Shown here: positions 13,173-32,355 of the stretch, piece by piece | Numbering within the stretch: position 1 is the first letter of the stretch | How the letters are laid out: every line of letters starts with the position of its first letter | Notes under the pieces: generated by a model | What the model saw: only the letters and a program-made list of their open reading frames with translations | Database searches by the model: none | What the model was told of the DNA's origin: nothing | Assembly (NCBI GenBank): GCA_016900015.1 | Contig: JACJJM010000025.1 | Location: 1 to 52,060, forward strand | Direction: 5' to 3' | DNA: 52,060 bases | Source of the DNA: Phocaeicola coprophilus | GTDB taxonomy: Bacteria > Bacteroidota > Bacteroidia > Bacteroidales > Bacteroidaceae | Program-made: the position numbers and the translations under genes

Positions 13173-14798
13173 TTACATACGAATGACCGTCGTACACAGC
13201 CGGGCAATGGTCTCCCGATGAGTGACAAGTATGAGCGTCTTCCCTTCCACCTGCCGGGACAGACGTTCCAGAAGAAGCCGTTCCGTCACATTGTCCACCG
13301 ATGATGTCGGTTCATCCAACAATAAAACTCCACCCGGCCGAAGCAAGCCACGGGCGATGGCAATGCGTTGTGCCTGTCCCTCGCTCAAACCGGCTCCGTG
13401 TTCCCCGCAACGGGTGTCAAGTCCGTCGGGCAAAGCATAGACAAAGTCGGCTACAGCCGTATGGAGTGCAGCACGAAGTTCATCCTCCGTTGCTTGCGGA
13501 TTCCCCATCAACAGATTGTCCCGGATGCTTCCGCTTACCAACGTATTGCCTTGGGGCACATAAGAAAGATTGCAACGCGTGAGCGGAGAAGCTTCAACCT
13601 GGCTGACCGCATTGTAAAACATGATTTTTCCTTCATCCGGATGCAGCAATCCCAATATCAAGCGAAGCAATGTGCTCTTCCCCACCCCTGTCTCACCAAG
13701 AATGACAGTCAGACTGCCCGGAGCAAAGTCATGACTGAAATCAGCCAGCACGCGGCGTTCATTTCCAGGATATGCAAACGACACTCCCTCCGCCCGGATA
13801 CCCAGGCAACCATCCAGGCGCACAGACACACCTTGTCGTTCCAAAGGCAATGCCTGCAATTCAGCCAGCCGCTCCGCGGAAGTGAACACCCGGATGAAGG
13901 AAGGAATCTGACGACTAATATCCACCATAGGACGCTGCACCTGTGCCACTAATTGCAGAAAAGCTGTCATCATGCCGAACGTGACACTCCCATCACGCAA
14001 ACCAAAGATACCCCAAAGGAAGGCCACGGCATAACCGACAGCAAACCCAAGCTGCACCATCGAGCGTGAAAAGATGGAAAAATCCGTACGTTCCATGACC
14101 TTCCGCTGCAAAACCGACTGACACGACACCAGTTTGCCGACAGCCCGCGAGGTATATTCCAGCGTACGAATCAGGATACGATGCTGGAGATGCTCTTGCA
14201 GATGACTTTGGACCTGGCTGTCCATGTCCCGAATCTCACGCGACATGCGCCGCATACGCCGCACATAACTTTTGCTGAACAGCAAAGCGACAGGCATAAT
14301 AAATATAATGATACCAGCCAGACGCATATCGAGACGGGACAGAAAATACAATGCACCTGCCAACTGAACGATGGTGACCAACACAGCCGGAACTGTACGG
14401 CACAACGCATCCGTGACCGTCGCCACATCCTCCTCCAGACGGTTCAGCATGTCGCCGGAATGAAGTTTCTCCCGTCCAGTCCACTGGCTCTCCATCATGT
14501 GGACAAACAACTTGCGGCGCATTTCGTTCCGCATTTTGATTTCTGCACGGCTGGCCATGCGGCTTCGCATGATAGACAGTCCAAGTTGCATCACGATGCA
14601 AGCCACCATCCATCCGATAAACAGCCCCAAGTCATCGCCGGACTCCCCCGTAACAATGTCAATCAAATGTTTGCTGATATACACAGAAAACAGCGAGACA
14701 CCCACATGGAGCATTCCCGCCAGCGTGCACCACACGACAAGATGCTGATAGCCCCGAGATGCATTCCCAAGCCATCGTACACAGTCTTTTATTTGCAT
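13173..14798 (-). CDS. ABC transporter, fused permease and ATPase (exporter type)
   Basis: This 541-residue half-transporter has an N-terminal six-helix exporter-type membrane domain (about 15-300) and a C-terminal ATPase with Walker A GETGVGKST, Walker B VLLLDEP and a switch histidine in LVTHRE. The signature motif is LSEGQ instead of the canonical LSGGQ. It has no N-terminal C39 peptidase domain. It should work as a homodimer exporting a lipid, peptide or other hydrophobic compound. Upstream on the same strand are the frameshifted Rpn gene and the S24/S26 peptidase gene, separated from it by repeats. Single-gene exporters of this kind occur in peptide maturation clusters, but substrate assignment is speculative. 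Confidence 0.9.
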   Translation of the reverse strand: MQIKDCVRWLGNASRGYQHLVVWCTLAGMLHVGVSLFSVYISKHLIDIVTGESGDDLGLFIGWMVACIVMQLGLSIMRSRMASRAEIKMRNEMRRKLFVHMMESQWTGREKLHSGDMLNRLEEDVATVTDALCRTVPAVLVTIVQLAGALYFLSRLDMRLAGIIIFIMPVALLFSKSYVRRMRRMSREIRDMDSQVQSHLQEHLQHRILIRTLEYTSRAVGKLVSCQSVLQRKVMERTDFSIFSRSMVQLGFAVGYAVAFLWGIFGLRDGSVTFGMMTAFLQLVAQVQRPMVDISRQIPSFIRVFTSAERLAELQALPLERQGVSVRLDGCLGIRAEGVSFAYPGNERRVLADFSHDFAPGSLTVILGETGVGKSTLLRLILGLLHPDEGKIMFYNAVSQVEASPLTRCNLSYVPQGNTLVSGSIRDNLLMGNPQATEDELRAALHTAVADFVYALPDGLDTRCGEHGAGLSEGQAQRIAIARGLLRPGGVLLLDEPTSSVDNVTERLLLERLSRQVEGKTLILVTHRETIARLCTTVIRM

Positions 14799-15827: not shown

Positions 15828-15893
15828 ATGAATACCGCAAACGGCTTACATGCACTCAAATTATTATGCTCGACCCACTTGTGGGACGTTTAT
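15828..15893 (+). repeat. dispersed repeat, copy C
   Basis: The segment reads ACCGCAAACGGCTTACATG, then CACTCAAA and, at its far end, CCACTTGTGGGACGTTTA. It shares these blocks with copies A, B and D. Its last bases overlap the stop codon of the S24/S26 peptidase gene, so the repeat supplies that gene's end. Confidence 0.55.
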
Positions 15894-16369
15894 AAATCCG
15901 CTTCTAAAAATCCAAGCCGCACAGCAGCCCATAAGAGATAGCGACGCAACGGCAAGAGGTGACGCCACAACCGGGCCTTCCGCCGCTCCGCAGACGAGGC
16001 ACAGTCCACACGCCGATGTCCGTCACGCAGGATGGCAACTGCTTTTCCTACGACATCGCCGACTCGGCATCGCTCCACAGCCCGAAGGTTTCCGTCACCC
16101 ATGAGTGTCAGCCTGTCGCCTGACAGGCGATAAACACGGTGCAACACATAGCCCCGCTCTGGCAAACGGGCCAGCACGATGTCTCCCACACACAGGCTTC
16201 CCGCTGCCACCAGCACCAGACTGTCACGCCCGCCGATGATGAAAGGAAGCATGCTGCGTCCCTTGGCCGGTATCGTCACCGAATGCCCCTCAGCCAACAG
16301 ACGGGCCACTTCGGAGAAGTATTGCACATTATCCAGCAACACCCTGTCTTGTCCTTTTTTCTTCTCCAT
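15890..16369 (-). CDS. S24/S26-family peptidase, Ser/His type
   Basis: This 159-residue protein resembles signal-peptidase-fold S24/S26 proteases. The nucleophile segment is KGRSMLPFI (about residues 36-44). Where bacterial type I signal peptidases carry a catalytic lysine, this protein has GYVLHRV, a histidine as in the SipW/ER-type Ser-His enzymes, and the downstream conserved GDGN follows. There is no clear N-terminal membrane anchor, but a hydrophobic stretch near the C-terminus (LLWAAVRLGFL) may associate with the membrane. Substrate is unknown. Small stand-alone proteins of this kind are found with PqqD and nucleotidyltransferase genes in other genomes, and such genes are present 14 kb away. 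The stop codon falls in a repeat. Confidence 0.75.
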   Translation of the reverse strand: MEKKKGQDRVLLDNVQYFSEVARLLAEGHSVTIPAKGRSMLPFIIGGRDSLVLVAAGSLCVGDIVLARLPERGYVLHRVYRLSGDRLTLMGDGNLRAVERCRVGDVVGKAVAILRDGHRRVDCASSAERRKARLWRHLLPLRRYLLWAAVRLGFLEADL

Positions 16370-16973: not shown

Positions 16974-18179
16974 TTACTTAGTCTTGGTGATTACGGCACG
17001 GCTCATGCGCGGATCGTCGTAGAACATATTTTCAACGCCGCCCTTGTAGTCCACCTCAAGCTGTGACTTGTTCACACCAAACTCATCCACCAAGCAGTTA
17101 TAGACAGCCTCAGCACGTGCCTTGCTCAAGCGTTCGTTGAGCTTCTTGCTGCCAGTGCCGGCATCAGCATAACCGGTGATGGTGTAGACTGCATTCGGGT
17201 CGCCCTTCTTGATGGCCTCGGCAAGCATGCCCAGGTTGACACGGGCTTCGTTCGACAGGTCGCTCTTGCCGATGCGGAAGGTGACAAGGTTGGCCGATGC
17301 CAACTGACGTACCACCGTCTCAGGTTTCTTCTTGCTGCTTTCAGCCAACGCATTCTTCAGACGCTCGTTCTCTGCATTCATGTCGTTCATCTGTGCACGC
17401 AGGGCGTTGACAGCTTCGTTGTTGTAGCGCACGACAGTCTTGCTGCGGTTCCAGCCGCGCTGTTTGAACTTGTAGGTCAAGCCAATCGTAGCCGTGAACA
17501 TACCTTCGCCACCACGTCCACCCGGCTCTCCGTCAAATTCGTCGCTGACAAGCGTGCCGCGCAGGTCGAGGTTAATGTCCCAGGCCGGACTGAGGCGGAA
17601 GGAGTTGAGCAAACCGAAGTGAGCGGAGATGTCCGTTGCCGACGGTTCGTCAGACACACGCATCACGCCCAAACCACCGTATGCGCTGATGTTGTAGACA
17701 CGTGTCTCATTGTAGCCGCAGAAGAGGTTCGAGAGGTTGAACAATGCGTCGGCATGGATGTTGAAGTAGTTGAACTTCTGCTTCTCAAGCCAATAGCCAT
17801 TGCCTCCCTTGCCGGGCAGGTCGGAACCGGTGCTATGGGCCAGCGCGCCTTTCTGCGTCGCGCCCTTCACCGAAAGTCCGCTGTACATCAAGCGCACGCC
17901 AATGCCCGGCGTGAACCACTTGCCCACGGCAATGTCAAGTGCCGGGGAAATGCGGTCACCGAAGTCGGCTTGTTTGTCATGGTTGCCGAAGTAGACTTGA
18001 CCACCGGCACCGGCACTGATAAACCAGTTGCTCCAGAAGCGGTTGGTCTCCACTTTATATTTGTCGTTGCTGTAAATGACATCTTCGGTGATGTCTTCGC
18101 TCTGCTGTTCGGTCTGTGCATAGGCCGAACCTGCAACCAAAGCCAACGCAATGGCCGCAGCAAATGTTTTCTTGTTCAT
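16974..18179 (-). CDS. OmpA-family outer membrane protein
   Basis: This 401-residue protein has a Sec signal peptide (cleavage likely after AGSAYA), an N-terminal outer-membrane beta-barrel-like region (about 30-260), a short coiled-coil-like stretch around 275-305 (RAQMNDMNAENERLKNAL), and a C-terminal OmpA/MotB peptidoglycan-binding domain. The OmpA core includes GYADAGTGSKKLNERLSKARAEAVYNCL. The frame is open to 18245, but the ATG at 18179 starts the signal peptide. It probably anchors the outer membrane to peptidoglycan and is likely abundant. It stands alone, flanked by repeats, with a clear terminator at 16887-16930. Confidence 0.93.
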   Translation of the reverse strand: MNKKTFAAAIALALVAGSAYAQTEQQSEDITEDVIYSNDKYKVETNRFWSNWFISAGAGGQVYFGNHDKQADFGDRISPALDIAVGKWFTPGIGVRLMYSGLSVKGATQKGALAHSTGSDLPGKGGNGYWLEKQKFNYFNIHADALFNLSNLFCGYNETRVYNISAYGGLGVMRVSDEPSATDISAHFGLLNSFRLSPAWDINLDLRGTLVSDEFDGEPGGRGGEGMFTATIGLTYKFKQRGWNRSKTVVRYNNEAVNALRAQMNDMNAENERLKNALAESSKKKPETVVRQLASANLVTFRIGKSDLSNEARVNLGMLAEAIKKGDPNAVYTITGYADAGTGSKKLNERLSKARAEAVYNCLVDEFGVNKSQLEVDYKGGVENMFYDDPRMSRAVITKTK

Positions 18180-19562: not shown

Positions 19563-22139
19563 TCACTCCGCGTCCGTCACGAAAGAGCCGCTGACGATTT
19601 GGGTATTCATCCACTCCAAGCGGTCGGCGTAAGCTTTCTTCATCGACTGGATCGCTTCGTCGAAGCTCATTTCCTCGTCGCCATTGAAAGCAGCCCCAAC
19701 GGTGTTTTTCAAGTCGCGGGTCGTAGGCCACATGGCCGAGTTGAACCGGTCGGAGACACGATTTTGTTCGGCCAGACGGTCTATTTCGTCCGAAACTTGC
19801 AACAACGCCGGATAGATGGAGTTCCAACGTTCCTGCACTTTGCTCCGGAACGCCGCGTCTTTGAACAGGAGCGGATACCACATGTAGGGCATGTCGTTGG
19901 CATAGTCGTATTCCCCAAAAATAGGGAATGTACGTTCGGCTAGTTTCGACCCACCGTACAACCATTCGTCCACATTGCGGAGTTGGTCGACATAGTTACC
20001 GCCGTAAGCGCGCACTTGGTCAGGAATGATGAATGTCTGCCAGTCAAAGTCCCACACGGGACCTGCAGTCAGCTTGCCATCACCGTCCATGTACATGTAC
20101 ACGCTCTTCGGGTGCTTGTACTCGTTGTTGAACGTCAGTTCCTGCACGAGAAAGTAGTCGATGACAGAGTTGATGTCGAGCAACTCGTAGGCCGCCTCAT
20201 AGTTGCCGACTTCGAGATTGGCTTCGATGGATTCCACCTTGTCCTTCACAGCGTTGAAGATGTCGCCGTCTGCGGGCACTTCGTCCTTGAACATCACGGG
20301 TAGGCCGCGACCGGTGCGGAAGCAGTTCACTTCGTCCATCGCGTCGTCAAATTCCAGCAGGTAGCCACAGTCGGCCACTGTCGGGTTGGCGTTGCCGTCG
20401 TCCACCACGTCTTCATAACAATCGCGGATGTCGATGCGGTCGGCATCTATCTTGACTTTTTCTATCAGGTAATAGTTACCTACATGCCGCCCGTTGATAA
20501 CCAATTCTACGCTTACGCCACGCGGATTCCAGCCCAAACCGTCAGCCAGGGCATTGGCCGTGCGGTGAGCCACATCCTGTGCCACGGCATTACGCAGCAT
20601 GGTGCGGTCCATCCAGTTGGCAAGCAGCTCCCAACGCTTGTCGGTAGGCATGCCTTGCGGACCCACCTTTTCGTCAAACTTGAGCGCAAACGGCTTCTTG
20701 GGGAAGTTCTGCGTCGAGTTTCCACGCAGGCGTGCGCCGCACAAAGCCCTTTCCACGTCCACCGTACCATCGGCATTGTAGAGCGTGAAATGGTCGTTCG
20801 TCGGCCAGTCCTCGTTCTTTGCGCGTATGTTCAGACCGGCTTCAGTCCAAGCCATGCTGCCGCCCTCATGCTCAAGCACCGCCACAGGCAGCCCGGAGTT
20901 GGTGACACTCACAACATACGAACGGCTTTCCGTGCCGCTGCTCACGGTGTAAGTCACGGGCTTGCTGAAGTCCTGCTCACTTTCTCCGCTGGTCTGTTCC
21001 GTTCCGTCCACCGTCACTGTCATGCCGTCAGGCACGGTAAATGTAGGCTTCAGCTTGAAGTCATACAAATACGGGATGCAGCCGGCAATGCTCTCCGCCT
21101 CGATAGCCAACGCTTCTCCAGTGCTTTCCACCGGACGGGTGGCACTTCCGTTCCACGCCAGTTTCGTAGCGAGAATCTTGCCACTGTTATGCGCCACGTC
21201 AAACGAGAACGCTGTGATGACCGGACGTTCCGTCACCGTCATGTCGCCGGCATAATTCGCCAGCGAAAGCGGAAACGTGTAACAAGTGTTGCCGGCAAAG
21301 TCAACCAGCGAAGTTCTGGTGAACTCGGCCTTGAACTTGTGTGTCAGGATGGTGACTTTTATTTCATCGCCCTGCCTGATGTCCGGCGCACAGGTGATAT
21401 AGCCCGAATATGACGTTCCGCCGGTAAGGGCGGGAGCGTCACTCCAGTTCATGGTCAGCGTGTTTGCCCCGTCGGCTGAGCCTGTCCAGGTGACCGCCTT
21501 TGACGCTGCATCAAACGTGAAATCGCCGCCCAACCTGCGGTCTTCCGGCAGGCTGATGACGATGCTTTCCAGATTGTCGCCTTCCAAGGCCGTGCCTGTG
21601 GCGTCGATGTCGAATTTCAGAAGCGAGAAGAGGTGGCTGAACGTAAACTCATAGCTCCTGCCGTCAGAGGACGTGAACGTGGGCGTGCCTACCTTATAGT
21701 CGGATTCCAGCACGCCGCTGCCCAAGTCGAAGTCTTGCACCAACTTCAGGCTTCCCTTGATGGCCGACGGGTCAGCCGAGGCGTTGTCTTCGCTGTACGG
21801 ATAGTAGGCGTATGCCGGAGCTTCGCCCTGCTTCAGGTCGCCCGAGAATATGGCCTCAGGCACATTTCCCGTGTTAGTTGAGGCAAACAGGGCGTTCCGT
21901 GTGCCGTCCGTACCGTACACGCCGACGCAATCGCCCGGCGTCCAAAGTAAGCCGACCATGCCGTCGTCGGTTGAGTTGCCCACACAAGTACGGGTAATTA
22001 TACCGCCGTCCATGCGTGCTACAATGTCAACATTGCCCTTACCCCCTTCACCCACCAGCATTTCATCCTGGCAGGCACTGAGGCAGAAAAGGCACGACAA
22101 GGCTATAATGGCCGCATAAATTCTTGCAAAATAATACAT
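19563..22139 (-). CDS. CotH-kinase lipoprotein with fimbrillin-like N-terminus
   Basis: This 858-residue protein begins with a lipoprotein signal (lipobox LSAC, Cys23). Residues about 35-295 resemble the fimbrillin/Mfa-like beta-sandwich domain (WTPGDCVGVYGTDG; FTFSHLFSLLKFDI). About 300-420 is a small Ig-like segment ending in the usual 'TYTVSSGTESRSYVVSV'. About 465-800 is a CotH kinase-like domain with LRGNSTQNFPKKPFALKF, WELLANWMDRTMLRNAVA, GNYYLIEKV and GPVWDFDW. CotH proteins are atypical secreted kinases; activity here is unproven. The protein is probably surface-exposed. It is 76 bp downstream of the PI-PLC-like lipoprotein gene on the same strand. Confidence 0.85.
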   Translation of the reverse strand: MYYFARIYAAIIALSCLFCLSACQDEMLVGEGGKGNVDIVARMDGGIITRTCVGNSTDDGMVGLLWTPGDCVGVYGTDGTRNALFASTNTGNVPEAIFSGDLKQGEAPAYAYYPYSEDNASADPSAIKGSLKLVQDFDLGSGVLESDYKVGTPTFTSSDGRSYEFTFSHLFSLLKFDIDATGTALEGDNLESIVISLPEDRRLGGDFTFDAASKAVTWTGSADGANTLTMNWSDAPALTGGTSYSGYITCAPDIRQGDEIKVTILTHKFKAEFTRTSLVDFAGNTCYTFPLSLANYAGDMTVTERPVITAFSFDVAHNSGKILATKLAWNGSATRPVESTGEALAIEAESIAGCIPYLYDFKLKPTFTVPDGMTVTVDGTEQTSGESEQDFSKPVTYTVSSGTESRSYVVSVTNSGLPVAVLEHEGGSMAWTEAGLNIRAKNEDWPTNDHFTLYNADGTVDVERALCGARLRGNSTQNFPKKPFALKFDEKVGPQGMPTDKRWELLANWMDRTMLRNAVAQDVAHRTANALADGLGWNPRGVSVELVINGRHVGNYYLIEKVKIDADRIDIRDCYEDVVDDGNANPTVADCGYLLEFDDAMDEVNCFRTGRGLPVMFKDEVPADGDIFNAVKDKVESIEANLEVGNYEAAYELLDINSVIDYFLVQELTFNNEYKHPKSVYMYMDGDGKLTAGPVWDFDWQTFIIPDQVRAYGGNYVDQLRNVDEWLYGGSKLAERTFPIFGEYDYANDMPYMWYPLLFKDAAFRSKVQERWNSIYPALLQVSDEIDRLAEQNRVSDRFNSAMWPTTRDLKNTVGAAFNGDEEMSFDEAIQSMKKAYADRLEWMNTQIVSGSFVTDAE

Positions 22140-22215: not shown

Positions 22216-24480
22216 TTAATCCCAGCCAATGGCATTGCCACCCTTGTTGTAAGAGGCATTATAAACATTCGACTGGCTCGAACCTCTCGTACGCAACTGG
22301 AAGTTGAAGTTGTTGTTGATGATAGTCTGAATCAGGTTGCCGGAATAGTTATTCTCAGGGTTGGCATAGTTGATAAGCACAATACCGAGCGTTGCATCCT
22401 CCGTACGGTTTTGCAACAGGCGGGTTGCATACGGGCCTACTTCCTGTGTCCAGGCACTTACACCGTCTTGCGATTCACCACTACTATAGATTCCGTTTAC
22501 ATAGCAACCGCCGAGGTCGTTCAAGAACCACATGCTATGGTCGCTGTTGCTGTTATAATAGCCAACGCTACGGTTCCACATGTCCTCGATGTTGCCTATC
22601 TTCTGGGCATAAGTTTCTTCACCTCCATCGTTGTTATAACCAACGCTGGTAGCCTCGTGGTAGAACCATTGCAGGGCACCGCTGTTTACATTATAGGAAG
22701 TACCCCAACGCATCGAGTTGATTGCGTATGCATCGGTTTCGGTGAAAGGTGTGCTCACATCATCGAACTTACCCCATTTAGCAAACATGGCAGGAATTCG
22801 GTCATTTTCACTCAAGTGGTTACCCATATTATCTTTATTGTAGTTCACCTTGATGATAATGTGTCCTTTCACATCATTGATGGTAGTGGTAGGTGTTATT
22901 TCACCGGTATAGAGCCTGTAACGATCCTCATCAGCAGCCATCTCTGCCAACTCATTTCGGATGGCATCCATCCACGCCAGATCGCCATCAGTATGAGTTC
23001 CGTCAAGACGAGAACCATAATCATTACATTCACCCAATGCTGCTGTCAGCAAAATGAAGGCATATTCCTGGTTTTTACCCGCGTCTTCGGCAGTTTTCAA
23101 GCCTGTGGCAATTTCTTCAACAATTTCTTTGAAGCGAGTACTTGTCTTATTGCCTGCGACAGTCATATATAATACCTGGTCTGAAGCAGACCCTGACTCA
23201 TACCACGGTACATTATTTGTGCTTGCTGTCTGGATTTGGAATGCACGGATACCATTGGTAACCTGATCGGCAATCGACAAGTCCTGATAATAAACTGCAT
23301 TACGTCCACTTACGTTTTCCGCTGTCTGATACGACATCTTGCTGCCCGGCAGCGAAAGCTCGGTTACATAGATGTTCGGGTCGAGCGACGACATCCAGTA
23401 GTTTGGTCCGGTCTTGCTTACCGACGGCAGGATAACCTTATTCACCTTGTGGGCAAGGATACCGCCCTCTTGTGGCCCTTCATCACTGCCTGCTGCAGCA
23501 TTCAACGTGCGTACCAGCACTGCCGAGTTGTAAGGCGTGACGCGCAGTTGCAGGTCTTGACGTGCGGAGGTGTCATAGTTTACGTCCTTGGGCAACAGGT
23601 AGAAGCGCACCACAATCTTGTCGCCGTGCTTGAGGGTGATAAAGTCACCCTGCCCGTCGTTCAACGACTGATCGTAAAGCTGGATTGTAATCATGCTGCG
23701 AGTAGCATGAGGCTCGCCAGCTTGTTCATAAGTTGGATATTTCGCTCTATCGTTTTCTACAGCGGTGAAGTCCATCGTAAATTGGCCATTCAACGTCTCG
23801 CCTGTTGTAGAAACCAATTGTACCGCCGACATCTTGATTGCCGCGTCAGCAGTTTCCGGGCCATTGATTTCAACGTCAAGGATAGTCACCCAAGGCTTGA
23901 AGTTAAGAGCAACATCGCCTCCATCCGACTTATTATGTGTGTTATAAGCCCACATGAAAGCATAATCAGTATTGGCAACGCCGGTGTAAGTGGTACCGCC
24001 TGCGTCATTGGGTGTTGATTTCCAGCTCAATGGAGTTTGTTCAACAGGGATTTCAGCTGTAATCTTTCCGTTTTGCAAGCCTACAATCCGGTCGGCCGGA
24101 TAAAACGCCGAGAAATGGTGTTCTTCAGCCTGTCCCCATTGTAAGCCGGCTTGGTCGGGATTGACTTTGGTCACGGCAGACGAGTGGCTTGCATCTTTTC
24201 CGTCAGGAGTCACCTTGTAATATACCATGTTGCCATTGGATGCTTCCGGGCAGTAGATGGCTATCTGGTCTCCTTCTTCCCAAGTCACAGGGTAAGCCCC
24301 GTCTACAGGTTCATCCCCGTAAATTGTACGGGTCTGTTCTTCAATATCCGTCAATGACGAGCCGAACGTTATCTCATCGCCGGTCTGAGCCGGAGTAACC
24401 GGATTTTCGACCACTTCGTCCTGACAGCCGCTTAGGCCTACCAAAGCGGCTGCAAATAAAGAATATACGATTCTTTTCAT
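22216..24480 (-). CDS. fimbrillin-like lipoprotein with degenerate PI-PLC-like domain
   Basis: This 754-residue lipoprotein (lipobox LSGC, Cys19) has two parts. Residues about 25-355 look fimbrillin-like (TWEEGDQIAIYCPE; HHFSAFYPADRI). From about 361 the sequence WMSSLDPNIYVTELSLPGSK, followed by QDLSIADQVTNGIRAFQI, follows the start of bacterial phosphatidylinositol-specific phospholipase C. In active enzymes the first motif reads like PGTHDS, with a catalytic histidine; here it is PGSKMS (378-383). The second histidine region reads MTVAG. Both catalytic histidines therefore appear to be missing, suggesting a binding role. The frame is open to 24561, but the signal peptide starts at 24480. 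It lies between a 67-residue protein gene and the CotH gene. Confidence 0.75.
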   Translation of the reverse strand: MKRIVYSLFAAALVGLSGCQDEVVENPVTPAQTGDEITFGSSLTDIEEQTRTIYGDEPVDGAYPVTWEEGDQIAIYCPEASNGNMVYYKVTPDGKDASHSSAVTKVNPDQAGLQWGQAEEHHFSAFYPADRIVGLQNGKITAEIPVEQTPLSWKSTPNDAGGTTYTGVANTDYAFMWAYNTHNKSDGGDVALNFKPWVTILDVEINGPETADAAIKMSAVQLVSTTGETLNGQFTMDFTAVENDRAKYPTYEQAGEPHATRSMITIQLYDQSLNDGQGDFITLKHGDKIVVRFYLLPKDVNYDTSARQDLQLRVTPYNSAVLVRTLNAAAGSDEGPQEGGILAHKVNKVILPSVSKTGPNYWMSSLDPNIYVTELSLPGSKMSYQTAENVSGRNAVYYQDLSIADQVTNGIRAFQIQTASTNNVPWYESGSASDQVLYMTVAGNKTSTRFKEIVEEIATGLKTAEDAGKNQEYAFILLTAALGECNDYGSRLDGTHTDGDLAWMDAIRNELAEMAADEDRYRLYTGEITPTTTINDVKGHIIIKVNYNKDNMGNHLSENDRIPAMFAKWGKFDDVSTPFTETDAYAINSMRWGTSYNVNSGALQWFYHEATSVGYNNDGGEETYAQKIGNIEDMWNRSVGYYNSNSDHSMWFLNDLGGCYVNGIYSSGESQDGVSAWTQEVGPYATRLLQNRTEDATLGIVLINYANPENNYSGNLIQTIINNNFNFQLRTRGSSQSNVYNASYNKGGNAIGWD

Positions 24481-24499
24481 GATTATACTCGTTTTTAAG

Positions 24500-24703
24500 T
24501 TAATTACCCCAAGTGCTTCGTGTACCACCATCGTTATCCCAACCGATATCGGTATAGTCACCTGTATTTCCTACTTCGTGTCCTCCGATGGACACACCAT
24601 CATCTTGCTCGTTTTCCGAATCAAATATAGAGGCACTCATAAATCCTTGTTCCATCTCCACTTCCGTCTTTTCAGTATGTGGAGCAATGTAATCTTTCTT
24701 CAT
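24500..24703 (-). CDS. small Asp/Gly-rich protein upstream of the lipoprotein pair
   Basis: This 67-residue protein starts at the ATG at 24703 (a GTG lies three codons upstream). It opens with a basic segment (MKKDYIAPHTEKTEVEMEQG), continues through FMSASIFDSENEQDDG, and ends in a Gly/Asp/Thr-rich tail (GDYTDIGWDNDGGTRSTWGN). There is no signal peptide. Short proteins with this 'KxYxxP---V--EqGfmSASI' layout commonly precede fimbrillin-like genes in Bacteroides, to my recollection, but no function is established. It sits 19 bp before the lipoprotein start, so co-transcription is likely. Confidence 0.6.
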   Translation of the reverse strand: MKKDYIAPHTEKTEVEMEQGFMSASIFDSENEQDDGVSIGGHEVGNTGDYTDIGWDNDGGTRSTWGN

Positions 24704-24855: not shown

Positions 24856-25209
24856 TCAGTTGCTCCAGCTATCGGCCGGGCACGGTTCGCACACGATCGT
24901 CGCATATTCCTTCACCAACCCGTTGACCTCATCCACAAAGCAGTTGAGCACGTCGGTCGGGTGCACATTGGCGTATGCGTTAATCACCCGCACGATGGCC
25001 AGATAGATGGCATTAGCCTGCGCCAACGCGCCCTCCGCCCCGTCGGCACGCAAGGCAGCCACGGCCTCGGCATAAGCTTCGGCCTGCTCCCCGATGTGCA
25101 ACGCCGACGGCGTCGCATGGACAATGCAACGGTTCACCCGCGTGTGAAATTCGACGCACGAATCCTTCGTCATCTCCGCCAAGCGGAATGACTTAATCTG
25201 ATTTGCCAT
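24856..25209 (-). CDS. hypothetical helical protein (possibly DUF6261-like, short)
   Basis: This 117-residue protein is probably all-helical and acidic, Ala-rich (EAYAEAVAALRADGAEGALA), with no signal peptide or membrane segment. It vaguely recalls the Bacteroides DUF6261 family, whose members are about twice as long, so this may be a shortened relative; this is weak. It is on the same strand as the lipoprotein cluster, 152 bp upstream of the 67-residue gene. Its GC content is higher than that of its neighbours. No function is proposed. Confidence 0.5.
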   Translation of the reverse strand: MANQIKSFRLAEMTKDSCVEFHTRVNRCIVHATPSALHIGEQAEAYAEAVAALRADGAEGALAQANAIYLAIVRVINAYANVHPTDVLNCFVDEVNGLVKEYATIVCEPCPADSWSN

Positions 25210-25343
25210 ATTAGTAACTAGTGATAAAAAAGAAATGACGCACGTCCTAGCAACGTCAAGAACGGCGCATCATGTATGATGTTTTATAAGAAGATATTCG
25301 AAAAAGCAAGGGCTGTGCCATAATAAATACACACCCGATGTAG

Positions 25344-25364
25344 GGACACACGGTTCGTGTGTCC
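25344..25364. repeat. short palindromic repeat, relative of 18988-19008
   Basis: GGACACACG-GTT-CGTGTGTCC is a 9-bp stem with a 3-nt loop, preceded by TGTAG. The copy at 18988-19008 has the same frame (TGTAGG, 9-bp stem, 3-nt loop) with compensating base changes in both arms. Confidence 0.5.
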
Positions 25365-25491
25365 GGATGACAACGCCTTGTGTTTCAGAATTTTTCCAAG
25401 CGGACGCAGGAGCCGTGCTTCCCTACGATGTCAATCGTCGACACAGCACCCTACAAGTTGTTGTACTACAGTTACTGTGATGTCCCGATAC

Positions 25492-25854
25492 TTATAACGC
25501 CTCGATTTTGTCGAGAGGCAAATCCATCATATTCGCTATCTCTTCCGAAGAAAAGCCTTTCCGCTTTAATCGCTGAATAATATCCGCACGGCCTTCCGCA
25601 CGACCTTTTTCTAATGCATACGCTTCTGTCACAAGGTTGTCACGGTAGACCTTGATGCTTTCATCGTAACGGATACGCTCTTCTTTCGTCAGAGATGCGA
25701 TGTCCACGATGTCTTCCAAACGCTGAAAGACGGCTTTCCGGGCTTTGAATGGTAATCTGCTCAATGTTTCCATATTTTTCAAAACATAAATCCAACGTTC
25801 AAAATCTGTCTCACAAGCCTCTTCATCTTTCGTAAAAGATGGCAACTGCAAGTA
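25492..25854 (-). pseudogene. C-terminal remnant of an Rpn-family nuclease gene
   Basis: About 120 codons match the second half of the Rpn-like protein at 14917-15743: LQLPSFTKDEEACETDFERW aligns with ELPSFVKEEDECVNDFERW, and the following helices correspond. The catalytic N-terminal half is absent, and upstream sequence turns non-coding at about 25855. The only available start in frame is TTG, so this is a 5'-truncated remnant. It is not a direct copy of the 15-kb gene (many differences), but a diverged paralogue. Confidence 0.8.
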
Positions 25855-25898
25855 ATGTTCTGCAATTAGTTACATTGCAAAGATAACCATTGAGTCTA

Positions 25899-26093
25899 AG
25901 AAACTGTTTTGAATTTATCGTGTGATGATTTGAGATGAGTTTTTGAGTCATTTTTGCTTCTGTGATGAGGAAGATAGCGGGCTATCTGACGAAGAACAGG
26001 AACGAAAAGGACCAAAAAAATCGCTCAAAGCACACACGAAAACGGATACATCCAGTCGGGAAGAACTTTTTGTAGAAATTCAAAACAGTTTCT
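25899..26093. repeat. 195-bp MITE-like element with 18-bp perfect terminal inverted repeats
   Basis: Arms AGAAACTGTTTTGAATTT (25899-25916) and the exact reverse complement (26076-26093) bound a non-coding interior with the central palindrome GATAGCGGGCTATC. Length and central motif match the element at 602-800. It lies between the Rpn remnant and the end of the tyrosine-kinase gene, and may also end transcription of the capsule operon. Confidence 0.7.
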
Positions 26094-26107
26094 AAACCTG
26101 CCAAACG

Positions 26108-28468
26108 TCACTTCTTCTTTTTGGAATGCCCATAACCGTAATGTCCATAACCATATCCGTAACCGTAGCCATAACCATATCCGTAGCCATAACCACGATG
26201 TTTGGGGTCTACCCCATTAAGCACCAGAGCCATGTTTGTCAATTTCTTGTCTTCGTAGAGGCTTTCGATGTCAGGCAACTGCCGACGGTCCAAACGACCG
26301 GCACGTACTACAAACACCGTAAGATCGGCAATGCGGTTGGCAATGCTGGCATCAGCTATGATACCCACAGGCACGTTGTCGGCAATGACATAGTCATAAC
26401 GGGTGCACAACTCTGCAACCAAGTCATCCAGACGGCTATCCATCAACAGCTCGGCCGGATTGGGAGCGACCGGACCGGAAGCGATGAGGTCAAAATGCTC
26501 GTGATGCTGAATGATGTCATCCACCGTGACCGACGGATCAGACAAATAATTCGTGACGCCTATCTTATGACTACTGTAATGACGGCTCAATGTGCCCTTG
26601 CGGATGTCCAAATCGAGCAAGATGACCCGCTTTTTTGCATACACCAGACTCATGGCCAGGTTTCGCGAGATGAAAGTCTTTCCCGCACCCTCATTAAAGG
26701 ACGTAAACGTGATGACTTTCATCGGCTTGTCTTTCCTTGACATGAATGCCATGTTGGTGCGTAAAATGCGGAAAGCTTCTGACACGATGCTGTCATCCTC
26801 GCTGACCACCTCCTTCGTGCTGCCACGATGCTTGGCAACATCCTTGTCCAAAGGTATCTCTCCCAAGAAAGGCACGCTCACCATCTTTTCCAAATCCTTT
26901 CGACTGTGCACCCGAGTATCCATGAAAAGAATGCCCAAGAACGTCACGCCCGGCAATGCCAGTCCGACAAGTACTCCCAGCAATAAGATACGGTTGCGCT
27001 TGGGCGAAATGGGCGCATCACCGCCATCAGCACCATCGATGACCCGCGCATTGTTGTCGGCCATGGCTTGCGACAAGGCATTTTCTTCGCGCTTGTTGAG
27101 CAAGAATAGATAGAGTGCTTCTTTGATTTTCTGTTGACGTTCGATGGAAAGCATCTGACGTTCTTTCGTGGGAATGGAGGTCACACGGCTCTGCGCCCGC
27201 ATCTCCCGGTTCTGCGCATCGTTGCGTTTCACATTGATGCTGACAATCATATTGTCCACCGCACGGATGATGGTCTGCTTCATGGCACGAAGCGAATTAT
27301 TCAGCTCCTCCACCACCGGGTTTTTCTCACTGCTGTCATCTATCAGCCGGTCTCGTTTCAACTTCGCTGTGTTATACAGGTTTATCTGGTTCTCGATGTT
27401 CATATCACCGATACCCGTGTTGGAAGGAATCAGGTCTGTCTCCTTGGTCGGGTCTGTCAGATAATCTTTGATGAAATTGGCCAGACGGAGTTGTGTCTCC
27501 AGCTCCATCGCGTCTGCATTGTATTTCTGCGACTCAGTCATATACATGCCGGCAGAAGAAGCGATGTCGACAATCTGGTTGCGCTGTTTGAACGTTTCAA
27601 GGTCAGACTCCACGCTTCCCAATTCGTTTTCAATGATAATGAGACGCTCATTGATGAAGTTGGCCGTATTGACCGCCACTTGATTCTTATCCTTGATGGC
27701 TTCTTCATTGTACACCGTAATCAGCATATTCAGCACATCCTCAGCCCGCACCGGCGAACTGTCTTTCAATGACAAGGTAAGAATCGAGGATTCCTCCTCT
27801 TCCTGCTGGATGCCGAGCGCTCCTTTGTAGTAATTCACCACCGACTCCAAAGGACGTTTCTGTACCTCCACCTGCTTTCCCAACCAGGCATCACTGTAAT
27901 AATTGGTCGGAGTCACAACCAAACGCATGCCTTTGCCGACTGTCACGGTATCATTCAAATTGACTGTATAACTGTCATCAGAATCCACTCCTGAAAGTTC
28001 AGACAGAACTACGGTCTTTTTGTCTTTAGGAGTAACAGTCAGACTGATATACTGCTCTGACATCGCATCCGGAAAGGTGACGCGGACAGGCGCCTGCGTA
28101 TAAAGTTCATTATGCCGCAATCCGTCTTGCACCTGGTAGCTGATGTCAGCATGCACACGCTGGACCACTTCACGCATAAGACGCTTCGAGCGAAACTGAA
28201 GTATTTCATTGGCCACATTCACCTTGTTAATGAAATTATCAAAACGGTCGAGTCCCGCAGTAGATGCTTTGTTCGAAGGATCTTTGATAATCACAGTGGC
28301 CGACCTGAAATAGACAAACGGCGACCGCGCATAAGTGTACCAAGCAATCCCGCCACACACCAACACCGAAATCAAAAACCATTTCCATTTAGATGCCAGA
28401 TAAGCAAATAAATCCACCAAATTGATACTTTGGTCATTTTTATTAGCAGTGGAATTAGTAGTCTGCAT
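26108..28468 (-). CDS. capsule co-polymerase with BY-kinase domain (Wzc-like) and GY-repeat tail
   Basis: This 786-residue inner-membrane protein has an N-terminal Wzz-type chain-length domain, with membrane helices near 35-50 and near 500. Its cytoplasmic bacterial tyrosine kinase domain (about 560-750) carries Walker A FNEGAGKT, Walker A' ILLDLDIRKG and Walker B-like YVIADNVPVGIIAD. It controls polymer length and export with the Wza-like protein encoded just upstream. The C-terminal tail, the usual autophosphorylation site, is extreme here: eight Gly-Tyr repeats followed by HYGYGH and four lysines, placing 10 tyrosines in the last 30 residues. It is the last gene of the capsule operon. Confidence 0.92.
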   Translation of the reverse strand: MQTTNSTANKNDQSINLVDLFAYLASKWKWFLISVLVCGGIAWYTYARSPFVYFRSATVIIKDPSNKASTAGLDRFDNFINKVNVANEILQFRSKRLMREVVQRVHADISYQVQDGLRHNELYTQAPVRVTFPDAMSEQYISLTVTPKDKKTVVLSELSGVDSDDSYTVNLNDTVTVGKGMRLVVTPTNYYSDAWLGKQVEVQKRPLESVVNYYKGALGIQQEEEESSILTLSLKDSSPVRAEDVLNMLITVYNEEAIKDKNQVAVNTANFINERLIIIENELGSVESDLETFKQRNQIVDIASSAGMYMTESQKYNADAMELETQLRLANFIKDYLTDPTKETDLIPSNTGIGDMNIENQINLYNTAKLKRDRLIDDSSEKNPVVEELNNSLRAMKQTIIRAVDNMIVSINVKRNDAQNREMRAQSRVTSIPTKERQMLSIERQQKIKEALYLFLLNKREENALSQAMADNNARVIDGADGGDAPISPKRNRILLLGVLVGLALPGVTFLGILFMDTRVHSRKDLEKMVSVPFLGEIPLDKDVAKHRGSTKEVVSEDDSIVSEAFRILRTNMAFMSRKDKPMKVITFTSFNEGAGKTFISRNLAMSLVYAKKRVILLDLDIRKGTLSRHYSSHKIGVTNYLSDPSVTVDDIIQHHEHFDLIASGPVAPNPAELLMDSRLDDLVAELCTRYDYVIADNVPVGIIADASIANRIADLTVFVVRAGRLDRRQLPDIESLYEDKKLTNMALVLNGVDPKHRGYGYGYGYGYGYGYGYGHYGYGHSKKKK

Positions 28469-28511: not shown

Positions 28512-29303
28512 TTATTTAGTAGCCCATATCACAGAACATCCGGCCGTAATCACAGAAAGAATCGTCGTGCCGATCTGCCATCCGCGATCTTCATTGTCTT
28601 TCTTGCGATATTTCGGCTCGACATACACGATGTCATTTTGCTGGAGATAAAAACAAGGCGAATTAAACAAATCCTTGCTCCGCAGATCATGCATATACAT
28701 CTGACGCTGCCCGTTCACTTCACGAATGACCGCTACACGGTCAATCCGCGCCTTGGCATTCAAATCACCGGCTTTGGCTATGGCTTCCAAAAGGGTGATA
28801 CGGTCACCGTCGACCGAATATGTTCCATTACTGTTCACGGCCCCCAGCACTGTATACTTGAAATTAAGAAACTCAATGGCAACAAGCGGGTCCTTCATAT
28901 AAGCCCCTTCGACAATGCGGCTGCTAATCAAATCCTTCACCTGGCTGACAGTCATTCCCTCCACATATAGTTTGCCAAGAATGGGGAAGTCAATGCAGCC
29001 ATCCACATCCACGCGATACCCTTTCTCATTCACCTGGGTCGAGGCATCCGTCGTCACATTGCCATCGCTACCGACCCGAAATGTCCCGCCATATATATTA
29101 AAAGGTATGGCAAGTTCGGGATTCTTACAACTGACAGTGATGCTCAAACGGTCGTCACGGTGAATGACAGCTTCATGTTTCACATCATAAGGATAACTTT
29201 CGCCCACCTGCATGTCTTGCAGATAGACAAAATTCTTGCGTGACGCACAAGAGGTCAACAGCACTACGGCAAGCAAGCCTGCCCACAAAAATTGTTTCTT
29301 CAT
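28512..29303 (-). CDS. polysaccharide export outer-membrane lipoprotein (Wza-like, SLBB)
   Basis: This 263-residue lipoprotein (lipobox LTSC) has the Poly_export domain (IHRDDRLSITVSCKNPELAI) followed by an SLBB region (YTVLGAVNSNGTYSVDGDRI) and a C-terminal hydrophobic segment (TTILSVITAGCSVIWA). It should form the outer-membrane channel for the polysaccharide made by this locus, working with the Wzc-like kinase encoded 43 bp downstream. The frame is open to 29363, but the signal peptide begins at 29303. It follows the HprK-like gene by 35 bp. Confidence 0.92.
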   Translation of the reverse strand: MKKQFLWAGLLAVVLLTSCASRKNFVYLQDMQVGESYPYDVKHEAVIHRDDRLSITVSCKNPELAIPFNIYGGTFRVGSDGNVTTDASTQVNEKGYRVDVDGCIDFPILGKLYVEGMTVSQVKDLISSRIVEGAYMKDPLVAIEFLNFKYTVLGAVNSNGTYSVDGDRITLLEAIAKAGDLNAKARIDRVAVIREVNGQRQMYMHDLRSKDLFNSPCFYLQQNDIVYVEPKYRKKDNEDRGWQIGTTILSVITAGCSVIWATK

Positions 29304-29338: not shown

Positions 29339-30262
29339 TCACAAGTCGGCACTGGAAGTCCAACTCTTATCCTGACCGGCCAACTCACGGTGACAAAGGA
29401 GAACCGCGCCCTTGTCAGGCAAACATTCGAGCGTCCCGACCCTTACCAACCCGGCCAGCCGTGCCAACGTGTCATGCAAATGATCACGCATGTCCTTGTC
29501 CTGATTGATTACAGAACATCCGGGATAGAGCGCAATGAAAGCACCAATCCCGTCTTTCCGATGGAAACGATTCGCCGGAGCCTGACTCAGACGAACCATT
29601 CCACCAATCGGAAAAGAAAGTTGCTTATAGCATGAAGTTTTTCCACTCCAAGGAGTTCCATACGCAATGGCCGTATCCCGGCTGACACGAACCGTGGGAT
29701 TATCATCATTCAGCAATTCGCATCCCGGGATGTATTCCATCCACAAAGCGGCATGCGTACTCTTGCCTGTGCCGCTTTTTCCCATAAACAGAAAGGCCCG
29801 ACCGTCACAACACACAGCCGAAGCATGGATGGCGACAGCCCCTCTGCGAAGTACTGCTAATGAATAAGCGATGCGAATCAAGGATGAAAGCTTGCTCCCG
29901 GCATCGCGGTCTGTCCAGTCAATGAATGCCTTCACGACACCAAAAGGCCTGTCAGCCAGCATGCCATGAGTGAAGCGTCCGGAAACAGAAGAGACCGTGA
30001 CAAAATAACCGCTCCCAGCCGTGTATAAAGCGACCAGTCCCATGTCGCTGAGGTCTTCTTCCAGCAATGTCTTCCCATCAAGCTCTTTCGAAAAAGACTC
30101 GCCGGACTCATCGACCGTAAAATCCAAAAGTAAGTCATCTTCCTTCCAGGCCCTCTCACATCGGAAAGGGCGAAAGGACGGAAGCAATACGTCAGCATCA
30201 CAGCCGTCCGGCAAACGGACTGCTACGATGAAATCTGCTATCAAATATATGTTAGTCGTCAT
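29339..30262 (-). CDS. HprK-related kinase of the PqqD/NTase trio
   Basis: This 307-residue protein has a C-terminal HPr kinase/PEP carboxykinase-like nucleotide-binding domain: IHASAVCCDGRAFLFMGKSG, whose P-loop reads GKSGTGKSTH, then LLNDDNPTVRV, then YGTPWSGKT. The N-terminal 130 residues are unlike HprK. The frame is open to 30487, but the ATG at 30262 is chosen because it follows the nucleotidyltransferase stop by 26 bp and the upstream part is low-quality coding. HprK-related kinases adjacent to PqqD-like and nucleotidyltransferase genes form a recognised but functionally unassigned arrangement; one relative phosphorylates a lasso peptide. Its substrate here is unknown. Confidence 0.8.
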   Translation of the reverse strand: MTTNIYLIADFIVAVRLPDGCDADVLLPSFRPFRCERAWKEDDLLLDFTVDESGESFSKELDGKTLLEEDLSDMGLVALYTAGSGYFVTVSSVSGRFTHGMLADRPFGVVKAFIDWTDRDAGSKLSSLIRIAYSLAVLRRGAVAIHASAVCCDGRAFLFMGKSGTGKSTHAALWMEYIPGCELLNDDNPTVRVSRDTAIAYGTPWSGKTSCYKQLSFPIGGMVRLSQAPANRFHRKDGIGAFIALYPGCSVINQDKDMRDHLHDTLARLAGLVRVGTLECLPDKGAVLLCHRELAGQDKSWTSSADL

Positions 30263-30288
30263 AAATGGATGAATGTTTTTGTAATAGG

Positions 30289-31389
30289 CTAACACCCTGT
30301 GAAACTTAGAAGTTGCCCGCCTGAAAGCCGGGCCATCATCCAAAAAGTTTCTTTCGGTGCATAACGACAGGAAAAGCCCACATTGTGCAAGAAAGACTGA
30401 CACGTCTGCCATTTCCGCATCCAGGTCGAGCGTGCATCGCGTTCTCTCCGTCCGGCCAAGTGCTGGCCAAAATTTCCCCCGCGCCACACGATGTCGAGCA
30501 ACGGGGCAGCCGAAGCTGCGCGTTCCGGATAAGGCAGGCTGCCGGTCGGCAAACCCAGACAGTCAACAAGGAATGCATGAAGCAACGGATTCCAACGTCC
30601 AAGTCCCAAGCGCACACAAGCCGTTTTCATCTCGTCAGCGGACAATTCATCGTGCAAGCAATGACAAGCACGCGCCATGTCGCACAACTGTCGCAAACCG
30701 ATGCCCCGCCCGAGCGCATGTTTCAAAATATGCAAGTCAAGCAAAAGTAAATTCAAAAACGGAGCCGGCACGGAAACCTCCACTCCCGACAACGGACAAC
30801 GAACGTATCCCCAAGTCTCCTCCATCCGACGGGCCATACGCTGCAAAAAAGGGCTGGACAAATCAAGCAAGCAAGAATGATGTTCCACGCAGACTCCTTT
30901 CCATTGATAGCACACACTGTGGTCCGGCATCTGGGTCGTCCGGACACGAGCTTGCTGCACACAGGACAGAGCTTTGTCACGGGCAGTTTGCCCGTTGAAA
31001 TAAAAATCGATGTCACCACACTCACGCAACAATGGATGCTCGTAGAAACGCGCCACCCCCTGGCCTTTCTGCAAGACAGGATTCAATCCTTCTGCCTGAA
31101 ACATCGCGACAAGCCCGGCCAGCACTTGCTCCATCTTGCGGTTGCTCCGCTCTATCATTTCCACAGCCGCGGCCCATCGCATCAACAACGGCTCTGGAGG
31201 CAACAAGCCGGATGGCAAATATTGCAATCCTTGAAAGGCCAAACCTGTAACCGTCTGTTGACGGGCTAAACGAAACACTCCATCCCAGCCTTCATTCCCC
31301 AAGGAGAAACAAGACAGCTCGTCCGGCTGTTTTTCCCACAGGCCAGCCCGCAAAAGGACAAGCAAGGCGTACCGCTCTTTGTTCTGCAT
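30289..31389 (-). CDS. nucleotidyltransferase-family protein (NTP_transf_5-like)
   Basis: This 366-residue protein resembles the uncharacterised nucleotidyltransferase family found with HprK-like and PqqD-like proteins. The visible core is VLQKGQGVARFYEHPLLREC followed by GDIDFYF (about residues 114-140), with the paired acidic residues expected for metal binding. Elsewhere it is rich in Leu and Arg, with likely helices. It could transfer a nucleotide to a protein, peptide or glycan; nothing identifies the acceptor. It starts 3 bp after the PqqD stop, so the three proteins are produced together. Confidence 0.75.
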   Translation of the reverse strand: MQNKERYALLVLLRAGLWEKQPDELSCFSLGNEGWDGVFRLARQQTVTGLAFQGLQYLPSGLLPPEPLLMRWAAAVEMIERSNRKMEQVLAGLVAMFQAEGLNPVLQKGQGVARFYEHPLLRECGDIDFYFNGQTARDKALSCVQQARVRTTQMPDHSVCYQWKGVCVEHHSCLLDLSSPFLQRMARRMEETWGYVRCPLSGVEVSVPAPFLNLLLLDLHILKHALGRGIGLRQLCDMARACHCLHDELSADEMKTACVRLGLGRWNPLLHAFLVDCLGLPTGSLPYPERAASAAPLLDIVWRGGNFGQHLAGRRERDARSTWMRKWQTCQSFLHNVGFSCRYAPKETFWMMARLSGGQLLSFTGC

Positions 31390-31392
31390 TCT

Positions 31393-31674
31393 TTATCCTC
31401 GGATCAGACCAAAGTTTTTCCACTCATCCAACTGCTTCGTCACATCCTGAAGCGCAGTCGCCTTGTCAATTTCATACTGAGCACAAAGCCAATCGGCCAA
31501 TTCTTCCAACGAAGAATGCCCTTGCTCCAAAAGCTTCCACAAGTCAGCAGCTGTCGCATTCAAACTATATACAGTGCTCATATTGACATTTTCTGAACAG
31601 ACGTCCACGACCATGTAACGATGCCCAATCTTGCGCAACTGTAATCCGTCTTTGATTCTAACATTCATCATCAT
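31393..31674 (-). CDS. PqqD-family protein (RiPP-recognition-element fold)
   Basis: This 93-residue protein is a typical PqqD-type winged-helix domain: strand-rich start (GLQLRKIGHRYMVVDV), then STVYSLNATAADLWKLLEQG and the helical SLEELADWLCAQYEIDKATA. PqqD domains bind leader peptides and present them to modifying enzymes. No leader-bearing precursor is seen next to it: only 6 bp separate it from the sugar transferase gene. Three ATG codons in a row (31674, 31671, 31668) are possible starts; the first is listed. Confidence 0.85.
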   Translation of the reverse strand: MMMNVRIKDGLQLRKIGHRYMVVDVCSENVNMSTVYSLNATAADLWKLLEQGHSSLEELADWLCAQYEIDKATALQDVTKQLDEWKNFGLIRG

Positions 31675-31680
31675 CTCTTC

Positions 31681-32355
31681 TTAAAATTTCTTTCCAATCA
31701 AAATAGACATAACAGTCAAATAAATAATCTTCAAATCAAGCCACAGGGAGCGGTTGTTCAGATACTCCAAATCCATCCTTAAACGCTCCAGCATCTTGTC
31801 CATAGTGTCAGTGTAGCCGTTGTATAAAGTCGCGGGAGAAAAAAGCCCGGGACGTAATTGGTATAGCAATTCATAATTGGGATTGATGGCTTTAATCTTG
31901 TCCACAAAAAAACGACGTTCAGGACGCGGTCCGACAAAGCTCATCTCACCTTTAACCACATTCCACAACTGTGGCAACTCGTCTAAATGGTGCTCACGCA
32001 GGAAACGGCCGATTTTAGTCAAACGTTTATCCTCCTTCTGACAAAGCTCTGGAATGCCGTCCTTCTCAGCCAAGACCGTCATGGAACGAAATTTATACAA
32101 GATGAAAGGTTTCCCATGATAACCGATACGCTCTTGCTTGAAAATAGCTGGTCCGCCGTCCTCACGCTTAATAAGCAGGTATATCACCAAAAAAGCGGGA
32201 GAAGACACCAACAAACCCAACAAGCCACCTACTAAATCAAAGAATCTCTTTATGCCACAAGCAAAAGAAGACATCTCTTCATGAGAATAATAATTGTCGT
32301 TCGTAATCTCAATTCTCGCAGTTCTCGTCACTGCTTCCGGTTTTTCATACTTCAT
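31681..32355 (-). CDS. initiating sugar-phosphate transferase (undecaprenyl-phosphate)
   Basis: This 224-residue monotopic membrane enzyme should transfer the first sugar-1-phosphate to undecaprenyl phosphate. It has one hydrophobic re-entrant segment (about 39-62, FFDLVGGLLGLLVSSPAFLV) and family motifs: KQERIGYHGKPFILYKFRSM, LREHHLDELPQLWNVVKGEM, and FVGPRPERRFF near 135-145. It belongs to the small, single-domain form. The donor sugar cannot be read from the sequence. It overlaps the preceding GT4 gene by 11 bp and is followed directly by pqqD. Confidence 0.93.
   Translation of the reverse strand: MKYEKPEAVTRTARIEITNDNYYSHEEMSSFACGIKRFFDLVGGLLGLLVSSPAFLVIYLLIKREDGGPAIFKQERIGYHGKPFILYKFRSMTVLAEKDGIPELCQKEDKRLTKIGRFLREHHLDELPQLWNVVKGEMSFVGPRPERRFFVDKIKAINPNYELLYQLRPGLFSPATLYNGYTDTMDKMLERLRMDLEYLNNRSLWLDLKIIYLTVMSILIGKKF

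Follow-up and report, generated by a model that had tools for sequence, protein, structure and literature searches.

Why would three enzymes of the kind that modify peptides be encoded in the middle of a capsule operon? The question is posed by a 52,060-nucleotide stretch of DNA from Phocaeicola coprophilus (here called the window), in which three adjacent minus-strand open reading frames (ORFs) had been assigned to a PqqD-type domain, an NTP_transf_5-like nucleotidyltransferase, and an HprK-related kinase, with no precursor peptide. We confirmed the coordinates of the trio and its gaps of 3 and 26 bp, as well as its flanks: an initiating sugar transferase precedes it, and Poly_export (Wza) and Wzc-type proteins follow (Table 1). 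The analysis described below leads us to conclude, with a probability of roughly three in four, that the locus encodes a RiPP biosynthetic system resembling that of the linear polyphosphorylated peptides (LPPs), built into a capsule/exopolysaccharide operon.

Table 1. Features of the locus, in order of position in the window
Feature	Position	Strand	Evidence or remark
MsbA-like ABC exporter	13173..14798	-	ABC_membrane E 1.9e-28, ABC_tran E 7.1e-27
PD-(D/E)XK transposase fragment (PF12784)	14917-15411	-	Between protease and exporter
Peptidase_S24-like protease, candidate leader protease, Ser39 and His77	15890..16369	-	Peptidase_S24 E 1.2e-3, below cutoff
OmpA-family outer-membrane protein	16974..18179	-	OmpA E 7.1e-17
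Protein with Mfa_like_1 and CotH kinase domains	19563..22139	-	CotH E 2.1e-27, Mfa_like_1 E 1.5e-11
Fimbrillin-like lipoprotein (Mfa_like_1), 19 bp after precursor	22216..24480	-	Pfam E 3e-7, above cutoff; lipobox-like start
Candidate precursor, 67 aa, YxxP leader YIAPHTEKTEVEMEQGFMSAS	24500..24703	-	YxxP motif and profile matches
PD-(D/E)XK transposase fragment (PF12784)	25492-25851	-	Between Wzc and precursor
Wzc-type chain-length/tyrosine kinase	26108..28468	-	GNVR, AAA_31, and weak Wzz matches
Wza-type polysaccharide export lipoprotein	28512..29303	-	Poly_export E 1.5e-18, SLBB
HprK-like kinase, 307 aa from ATG	29339..30262	-	Invariant residues and modeled fold
NTP_transf_5 nucleotidyltransferase, 366 aa, LppN/PsmN-like by role	30289..31389	-	PF14907 E 2e-36
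PqqD-type RiPP recognition element (RRE; leader-binding), 93 aa	31393..31674	-	PF05402 E 5.5e-17
Initiating bacterial sugar transferase (PF02397)	31681..32355	-	Pfam E 1.7e-60; opens the Bacteroidales capsule-subtype order

Pfam profiles bore out the identities of the PqqD and NTP_transf_5 proteins, and the connection of all three families with peptide modification also stood. For the kinase, profile matches were weak, with E = 0.31 for Hpr_kinase_C and E = 1.7e-4 for HprK_rel_A (score, 20.8 bits; cutoff, 200), but conserved residues and the modeled fold support its assignment. Its relatives keep H146, the P-loop S163-G-x-G-K167, and D186-D187 (H146, K167, D186, and D187 being invariant in the alignment), and a His-Lys-Asp-Asp motif is described as essential in lasso-peptide kinases in a review (PMC9266682). 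Searching solved structures by sequence for relatives of the kinase and the nucleotidyltransferase gave nothing useful or weak PEPCK/HPrK matches, and the folds of both proteins are therefore predicted ones. The AlphaFold model of the kinase (pLDDT 93.5) matched PEPCK (best E = 1.6e-6) and HPrK (E = 3.8e-5); as modeled, this protein has the PEPCK/HPrK fold. The model of the NTP_transf_5 protein (pLDDT 93.9) had one PDB match at E ≤ 0.001, the nucleotidyltransferase-like protein 5uvd, followed by MenT1 and ANT(2'') (E = 4e-3 to 3e-2) and FKRP (E = 0.12), and its predicted fold is that of a nucleotidyltransferase. Residues K108, G109, D126xD128, and H171 of this protein were invariant across 27 aligned rows. 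In one Bacteroidota family (f136; L191 to L194 and L197), the kinase match lies inside open frames of 659 to 687 aa, where the kinase may be fused to a second domain.

When the RRE profile was compared with the PDB, the sole matches at E ≤ 0.2 were TfuB1, TbiB1, PbaB1, and LppB, all of them leader-binding RREs, with LppB matching weakly (E = 0.12) and below the lasso RREs. The window RRE residues N39, Y67, and D77 align with LppB N33, Y60, and D70, which are reported to hold the Pro and Tyr of the leader (PMC13381572), and the pocket residues are kept among relatives (N in 24/24, D in 23/24). By this alignment, the window protein is a discrete RRE (PqqD fold) of the putative Tyr-binding type.

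The earlier statement that the locus has no precursor peptide proved to be wrong. The first clue came from short ORFs with an N-terminal [YW]xxP motif that lie near the kinase in several loci and also occur in the window, where the candidate is located 1.4 kb downstream of the Wzc gene. A profile of nine such peptides, which were found by motif near kinases in fetched neighborhoods without a Wza/Wzc match and which excluded the window peptide, matched the window at positions 24503-24733 with E = 6.3e-6, the next of the 1,117 window ORFs scoring 1.2. A 21-peptide profile that likewise excluded the window peptide detected the precursor at E = 6.2e-7 (next, 2.4; 1,117 ORFs), although 12 of its training peptides had been found via profile A1, which contained the window peptide, so that the nine-peptide repeat is the stricter test; the screen of neighborhoods for capsule genes covered these nine. 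Profiles A1 and A2 also include a WxxP peptide of locus L071 that is lasso-type in appearance, and the L071 genome stood outside the held-out comparison described below. Within its own genome, the window precursor was the single profile match below E = 1. Comparison with four homologues gave pN/pS values of 0.33 to 0.60, and uncorrected values among five capsule-type homologues were 0.33 to 0.72. Given this candidate, the locus reads as a peptide-maturation system of the RiPP type and not as a set of orphan enzymes. One other genome (G055, locus L083) had 16 precursor-profile matches at E ≤ 0.1 spread across contigs, which suggests that one modifying set serves many peptides; one of these peptides and relatives in G326 (L082) and G387 (L084) are each followed within 17 to 26 bp by a lipoprotein-like ORF.

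Further components emerged from the 15- to 20-kb neighborhoods of 40 Bacteroidales kinase homologues, whose ORFs were clustered together with those of the window. Besides the trio, two ORF families were recurrent among the 41 sources (window included), one of ~159 aa in 29 and the other of ~576 aa in 30, corresponding to a Peptidase_S24-like protease and an MsbA-like exporter. The window has a copy of each on the same strand as the trio, at 13 to 16 kb, part of the set yet outside the earlier finding. The window protease scored 19.0 bits against Peptidase_S24 (cutoff, 23.3), whereas its relatives in L105 and L119 exceeded the cutoff, and residues S39, H77, R78, G91, and D92 were present in 29 of 29 aligned sequences. 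SipW has a Ser-His motif, to which Ser39 and His77 may correspond. Against the PDB, the protease profile matched LexA repressors best (E = 3e-4) and signal peptidase I at E = 0.3; the description "signal-peptidase-like" is therefore based on the pattern of Ser-His and GD residues. The protease occurs in one copy in its own genome and exactly once in 12 of 13 searched genomes of the capsule subtype, defined here as loci with the kinase gene directly before Wza; it adjoins the exporter and/or OmpA gene in some of these genomes and another kinase copy in others. The exporter matched the MsbA model at E = 4.3e-67, which is under the cutoff of that model, and a different model scored best.

This gene set has a close published counterpart. 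The LPPs are a RiPP system from the lpp cluster of Paenibacillus alginolyticus, published in 2026, whose parts are given in the main text as an SpI protease, a discrete RRE, an HprK-like kinase, an NTP transferase, an MsbA-like exporter, and precursors whose leader carries YxxP (PMC13381572). There, the kinase phosphorylates a core serine, the NTP transferase had no visible effect in a heterologous test, and the genes, often located in polysaccharide loci, are stated to have an unknown role (PMC13381572). For every one of the six LPP core functions, the window contains a candidate. The two systems share the YxxP-type discrete RRE, the HprK-like kinase, the NTP transferase, the MsbA-like exporter, a putative S24/S26-type serine protease, a short precursor, the lack of a cyclase, and the polysaccharide-locus setting (often, in the case of LPPs). 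Unlike the Bacillota LPP genes, however, those of the window belong to Bacteroidota, are interleaved with Wza/Wzc, pair the precursor with a fimbrillin-like lipoprotein, and are accompanied by OmpA and CotH proteins. The window leader YIAPHTEKTEVEMEQGFMSAS shares YxxP with the LPP consensus YxxPxVLxHQxIxFETxxS and differs otherwise. The LPP protease is a SipW-like (archaeal-type) signal peptidase. The window protease is a below-cutoff S24 match that has the conserved Ser39 and His77, and its profile matches LexA better than signal peptidase I in the PDB. Because the leader does not follow the consensus beyond YxxP and the protease type is ambiguous, we call the system LPP-like, a likeness based on gene functions and the LppB residue alignment, and do not claim strict LPP membership.

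Given this close counterpart (PMC13381572), the suggestion that the trio represents a new system is right only in part. We found no description of Bacteroidota LPPs in the one open-access library searched. PMC13381572 has 0 occurrences of "bacteroid" in its main text, and its discussion restricts LPPs to Bacillota. The same text calls its protease cluster "predominantly" Bacillota, and its supplement may therefore hold Bacteroidota members of that cluster. A related system with precursor candidates in Bacteroidales would extend the distribution given in that discussion (PMC13381572).

To determine how widely the precursor accompanies the kinase, we searched 382 held-out Bacteroidales genomes (393 minus 11 training genomes; precursor at E ≤ 0.01, kinase at E ≤ 1e-20). 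Both were present in 31 genomes, the precursor alone in 9, the kinase alone in 19, and neither in 323 (odds ratio = 59, Fisher P = 1.3e-24, treating genomes as independent and ignoring kinship). The cutoffs were picked after the lists had been inspected, the kinase neighborhoods of some held-out genomes had been viewed previously, and loci of this same genome sample had served to build the kinase profile (A3). A kinase was thus found in 31 of 40 precursor-positive genomes, with no strong kinase in the other 9, and 19 of 50 kinase-positive genomes had no precursor match. The 31 genomes with both contained 81 precursor matches, 11 of which, in 11 genomes, lay 24 to 195 bp from the kinase, and the remaining 70 were more than 2 kb away or on other contigs. 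The kinase was detected in 60 of the 393 sampled Bacteroidales genomes and in 10 of 345 genomes of a phylum-wide Bacteroidota sample.

We also examined how far the capsule setting is conserved. In the broader Bacteroidales sample, Wza/Wzc lay within 8 kb of the kinase in 2 of 40 loci (L032 and L035); capsule linkage is therefore a feature of a subtype only. A contig scan with the single window kinase as the query found no relative, and an alignment-based scan supplied the best 80 of 531 relatives. The capsule subtype accounted for 21 of 119 related loci (40 plus 79), a share biased upward because the 79 named loci, from the best 80 of 531 relatives, are the best matches of the window kinase; they include named Bacteroides and Sphingobacterium species. 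The order sugar transferase-PqqD-nucleotidyltransferase-kinase-Wza-Wzc was complete in 13 of the 21 (L032, L104, L106, L107, and L109 to L117, the named loci being from the best 80 of 531). Among the best-scoring named loci (L103 to L117, 41 to 56% kinase identity, best 80 of 531), the kinase preceded Wza in 15/15 and the six-gene order was complete in 13/15, counting L105. That locus is the same record as L032 and the sole kinase pair with at least 97% identity; it was left out of the tallies and the kinase tree. Five further loci among the best 80 of 531 (L119, L128, L155, L168, and L171), of which four are from Sphingobacterium and one is a Bacteroidales record, had the order protease-PqqD-nucleotidyltransferase-exporter-kinase-Wza-Wzc. 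On the kinase tree (118 rows, the short L058 and L071 left out), the capsule label required 3 changes against a shuffled mean of 20.5, with 0 of 500 shuffles as low; the third change was due to L118, which ends soon after the kinase, and 2 remained without it. Since 33 of 121 sources were shorter than 19 kb, gene absences in these carry little weight. The concern that the trio might rarely lie beside capsule genes is accordingly half right, as the location is conserved in close kin and uncommon in the broader sample. One record titled as a Rickettsiales metagenome-assembled genome (L103) carries a Bacteroidales-like capsule-subtype locus, and its label is probably a binning error.

The precursor is regularly followed by a candidate lipoprotein. 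In 13 of 13 cases examined (the window, eleven precursors from ten capsule-subtype loci, and one from the near relative L149), the ORF that began 3 to 43 bp after the precursor had a start that a loose pattern classed as lipobox-like. Five of the 13 downstream proteins matched a fimbrillin-superfamily model (E ≤ 0.01), those of the window and L106 above the Pfam cutoff, and that of L111 matched DUF4906. Pfam gave no fimbrillin-superfamily or DUF4906 match for the downstream proteins of L032, L107, L109, L110, L113, and L149 or the first of L168; when a profile of the window lipoprotein was used instead, those of L032, L109, L110, and L113 did match. The peptides of L037, L043, L047, and L048 also precede ORFs that look lipobox-like by eye, in fetched neighborhoods without a Wza/Wzc match. 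Of the 21 capsule-type sources examined, counting the window, 13 contained an OmpA homologue; among the other 100 sources, the duplicate L105 alone did. Homologues of the CotH/Mfa_like_1 protein lie downstream of the precursor in the capsule-subtype loci L106, L109, L110, and L113 and were also found in L050 and L156. A sigma-70 promoter scan of positions 24300 to 26300 gave zero matches against 3.5 expected. A Bacteroides-type promoter pattern matched the window 4 times, where chance would give 2.2, and none of these matches fell between Wzc and the precursor. The two PD-(D/E)XK transposase remnants (Table 1) interrupt the locus and count against the reading proposed next.

The direct results, namely, the gene set, the precursor candidate, the conserved catalytic and leader-binding residues, the synteny, and the genome-wide co-occurrence, are consistent with the following scheme. 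The PqqD domain would bind the 67-aa peptide at its YxxP leader. By analogy with characterized homologues, which also guide the proposed order of steps, the HprK-like kinase would then phosphorylate a serine of the core, perhaps that of the conserved ...AS segment, and the Ser-His protease would cut off the leader. Between these steps, we infer that the NTP_transf_5 enzyme adds a nucleotidyl or sugar-phosphate group to the phosphate. Export of the core peptide would fall to the MsbA-like ABC transporter. With gene order as the sole guide, the product may work together with the lipoprotein encoded directly behind the precursor, on the surface of the cell, and, in the capsule subtype, may also act with the polysaccharide of the operon. 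The pairing of peptide and lipoprotein, plus that with capsule export in one subtype, offers a concrete place to seek the function of phosphopeptide RiPPs.

The most serious competing explanation accepts the peptide and disconnects it from the capsule: the product would be a modified partner of the following lipoprotein, for instance an adhesin peptide or one that serves pilus assembly, with the polysaccharide genes as unrelated co-residents. The lipobox-like ORF behind every precursor examined, its recurrence in four loci whose fetched neighborhoods had no Wza/Wzc match, and the position of most of the 40 broader kinase loci away from capsule genes all favor this explanation. Against it stand the kinase-Wza adjacency throughout L103 to L117 (best 80 of 531), with the full order in 13, and the kinase-Wza-Wzc arrangement in another five, including four from Sphingobacterium; we consider it possible, at somewhat under one chance in three. 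At the other extreme, the peptide might anchor or prime the capsule, its phosphoserine being joined to a sugar-phosphate or the growing polysaccharide, shown via Wza/Wzc, and held by the lipoprotein and OmpA. This elaboration is unlikely; if true, Gram-negative bacteria would have a novel, peptide-based means of attaching a capsule to the cell, and these RiPPs would gain a function. Much less probable again is that the trio modifies a lipid carrier or capsule sugar directly, with no peptide involved. Its location between the initiating transferase and the export genes would fit such a role, as would the weak fold match (E = 0.12 and worse) of the nucleotidyltransferase model to FKRP, listed with CDP-ribitol, but the window encodes a protease and an exporter as well as a leader-binding domain and a peptide to match it, and precursor and kinase co-occur across genomes.

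The least probable explanation, to which we give very little credence, is a lasso cluster of the paeninodin/pseudomycoidin type with its cyclase elsewhere and the trio as tailoring enzymes. The trio families are indeed the known tailoring set of these peptides (PMC9266682), and lasso B1 proteins were the best matches of the RRE profile. According to that review, an HprK-like kinase phosphorylates a peptide serine and PsmN is needed for a hexose on the phosphoserine; the PqqD-like B1 and HprK-like kinase are shared with both peptides and the nucleotidyltransferase also with pseudomycoidin (PMC9266682). In contrast to those clusters, however, the genome has no Transglut_core3 (B2, PF13471) match at E ≤ 0.001, the locus has no lasso cyclase, the protease is of another kind, and the leader motif is YxxP, the pocket residues being N and D, instead of the WxxP of the paeninodin type. 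Asn_synthase matches in the genome lie outside the window on other contigs (a 558-aa ORF on C52 and, weakly, a 516-aa ORF on C104). Nor does B2 accompany the homologues: B2 matches occurred in 9 of 60 kinase-positive genomes (7 above the cutoff), none near a strong kinase in these draft contigs, being on a contig other than that of the strong kinase or, in G327, ~370 kb away; in three genomes, the B2 match shares a contig with a second, weaker kinase match. A lasso cluster is thus largely refuted, lacking B2 in the genome and a cyclase in the locus. We also considered the NCBIfam HPr-rel-A system (TIGR04352, TIGR04353), which shares the pairing of PqqD with an HprK-related kinase, and rejected membership because scores were below the cutoffs (PqqD protein, 28.6 against 35 bits; kinase, 20.8 against 200 bits). 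Elsewhere in the Bacteroidales, small WxxP peptides with a C-terminal Ser lie near HprK-like kinases (L071:10485-10610, minus strand, and L099), and, judged by eye, these look like lasso precursors of the paeninodin type.
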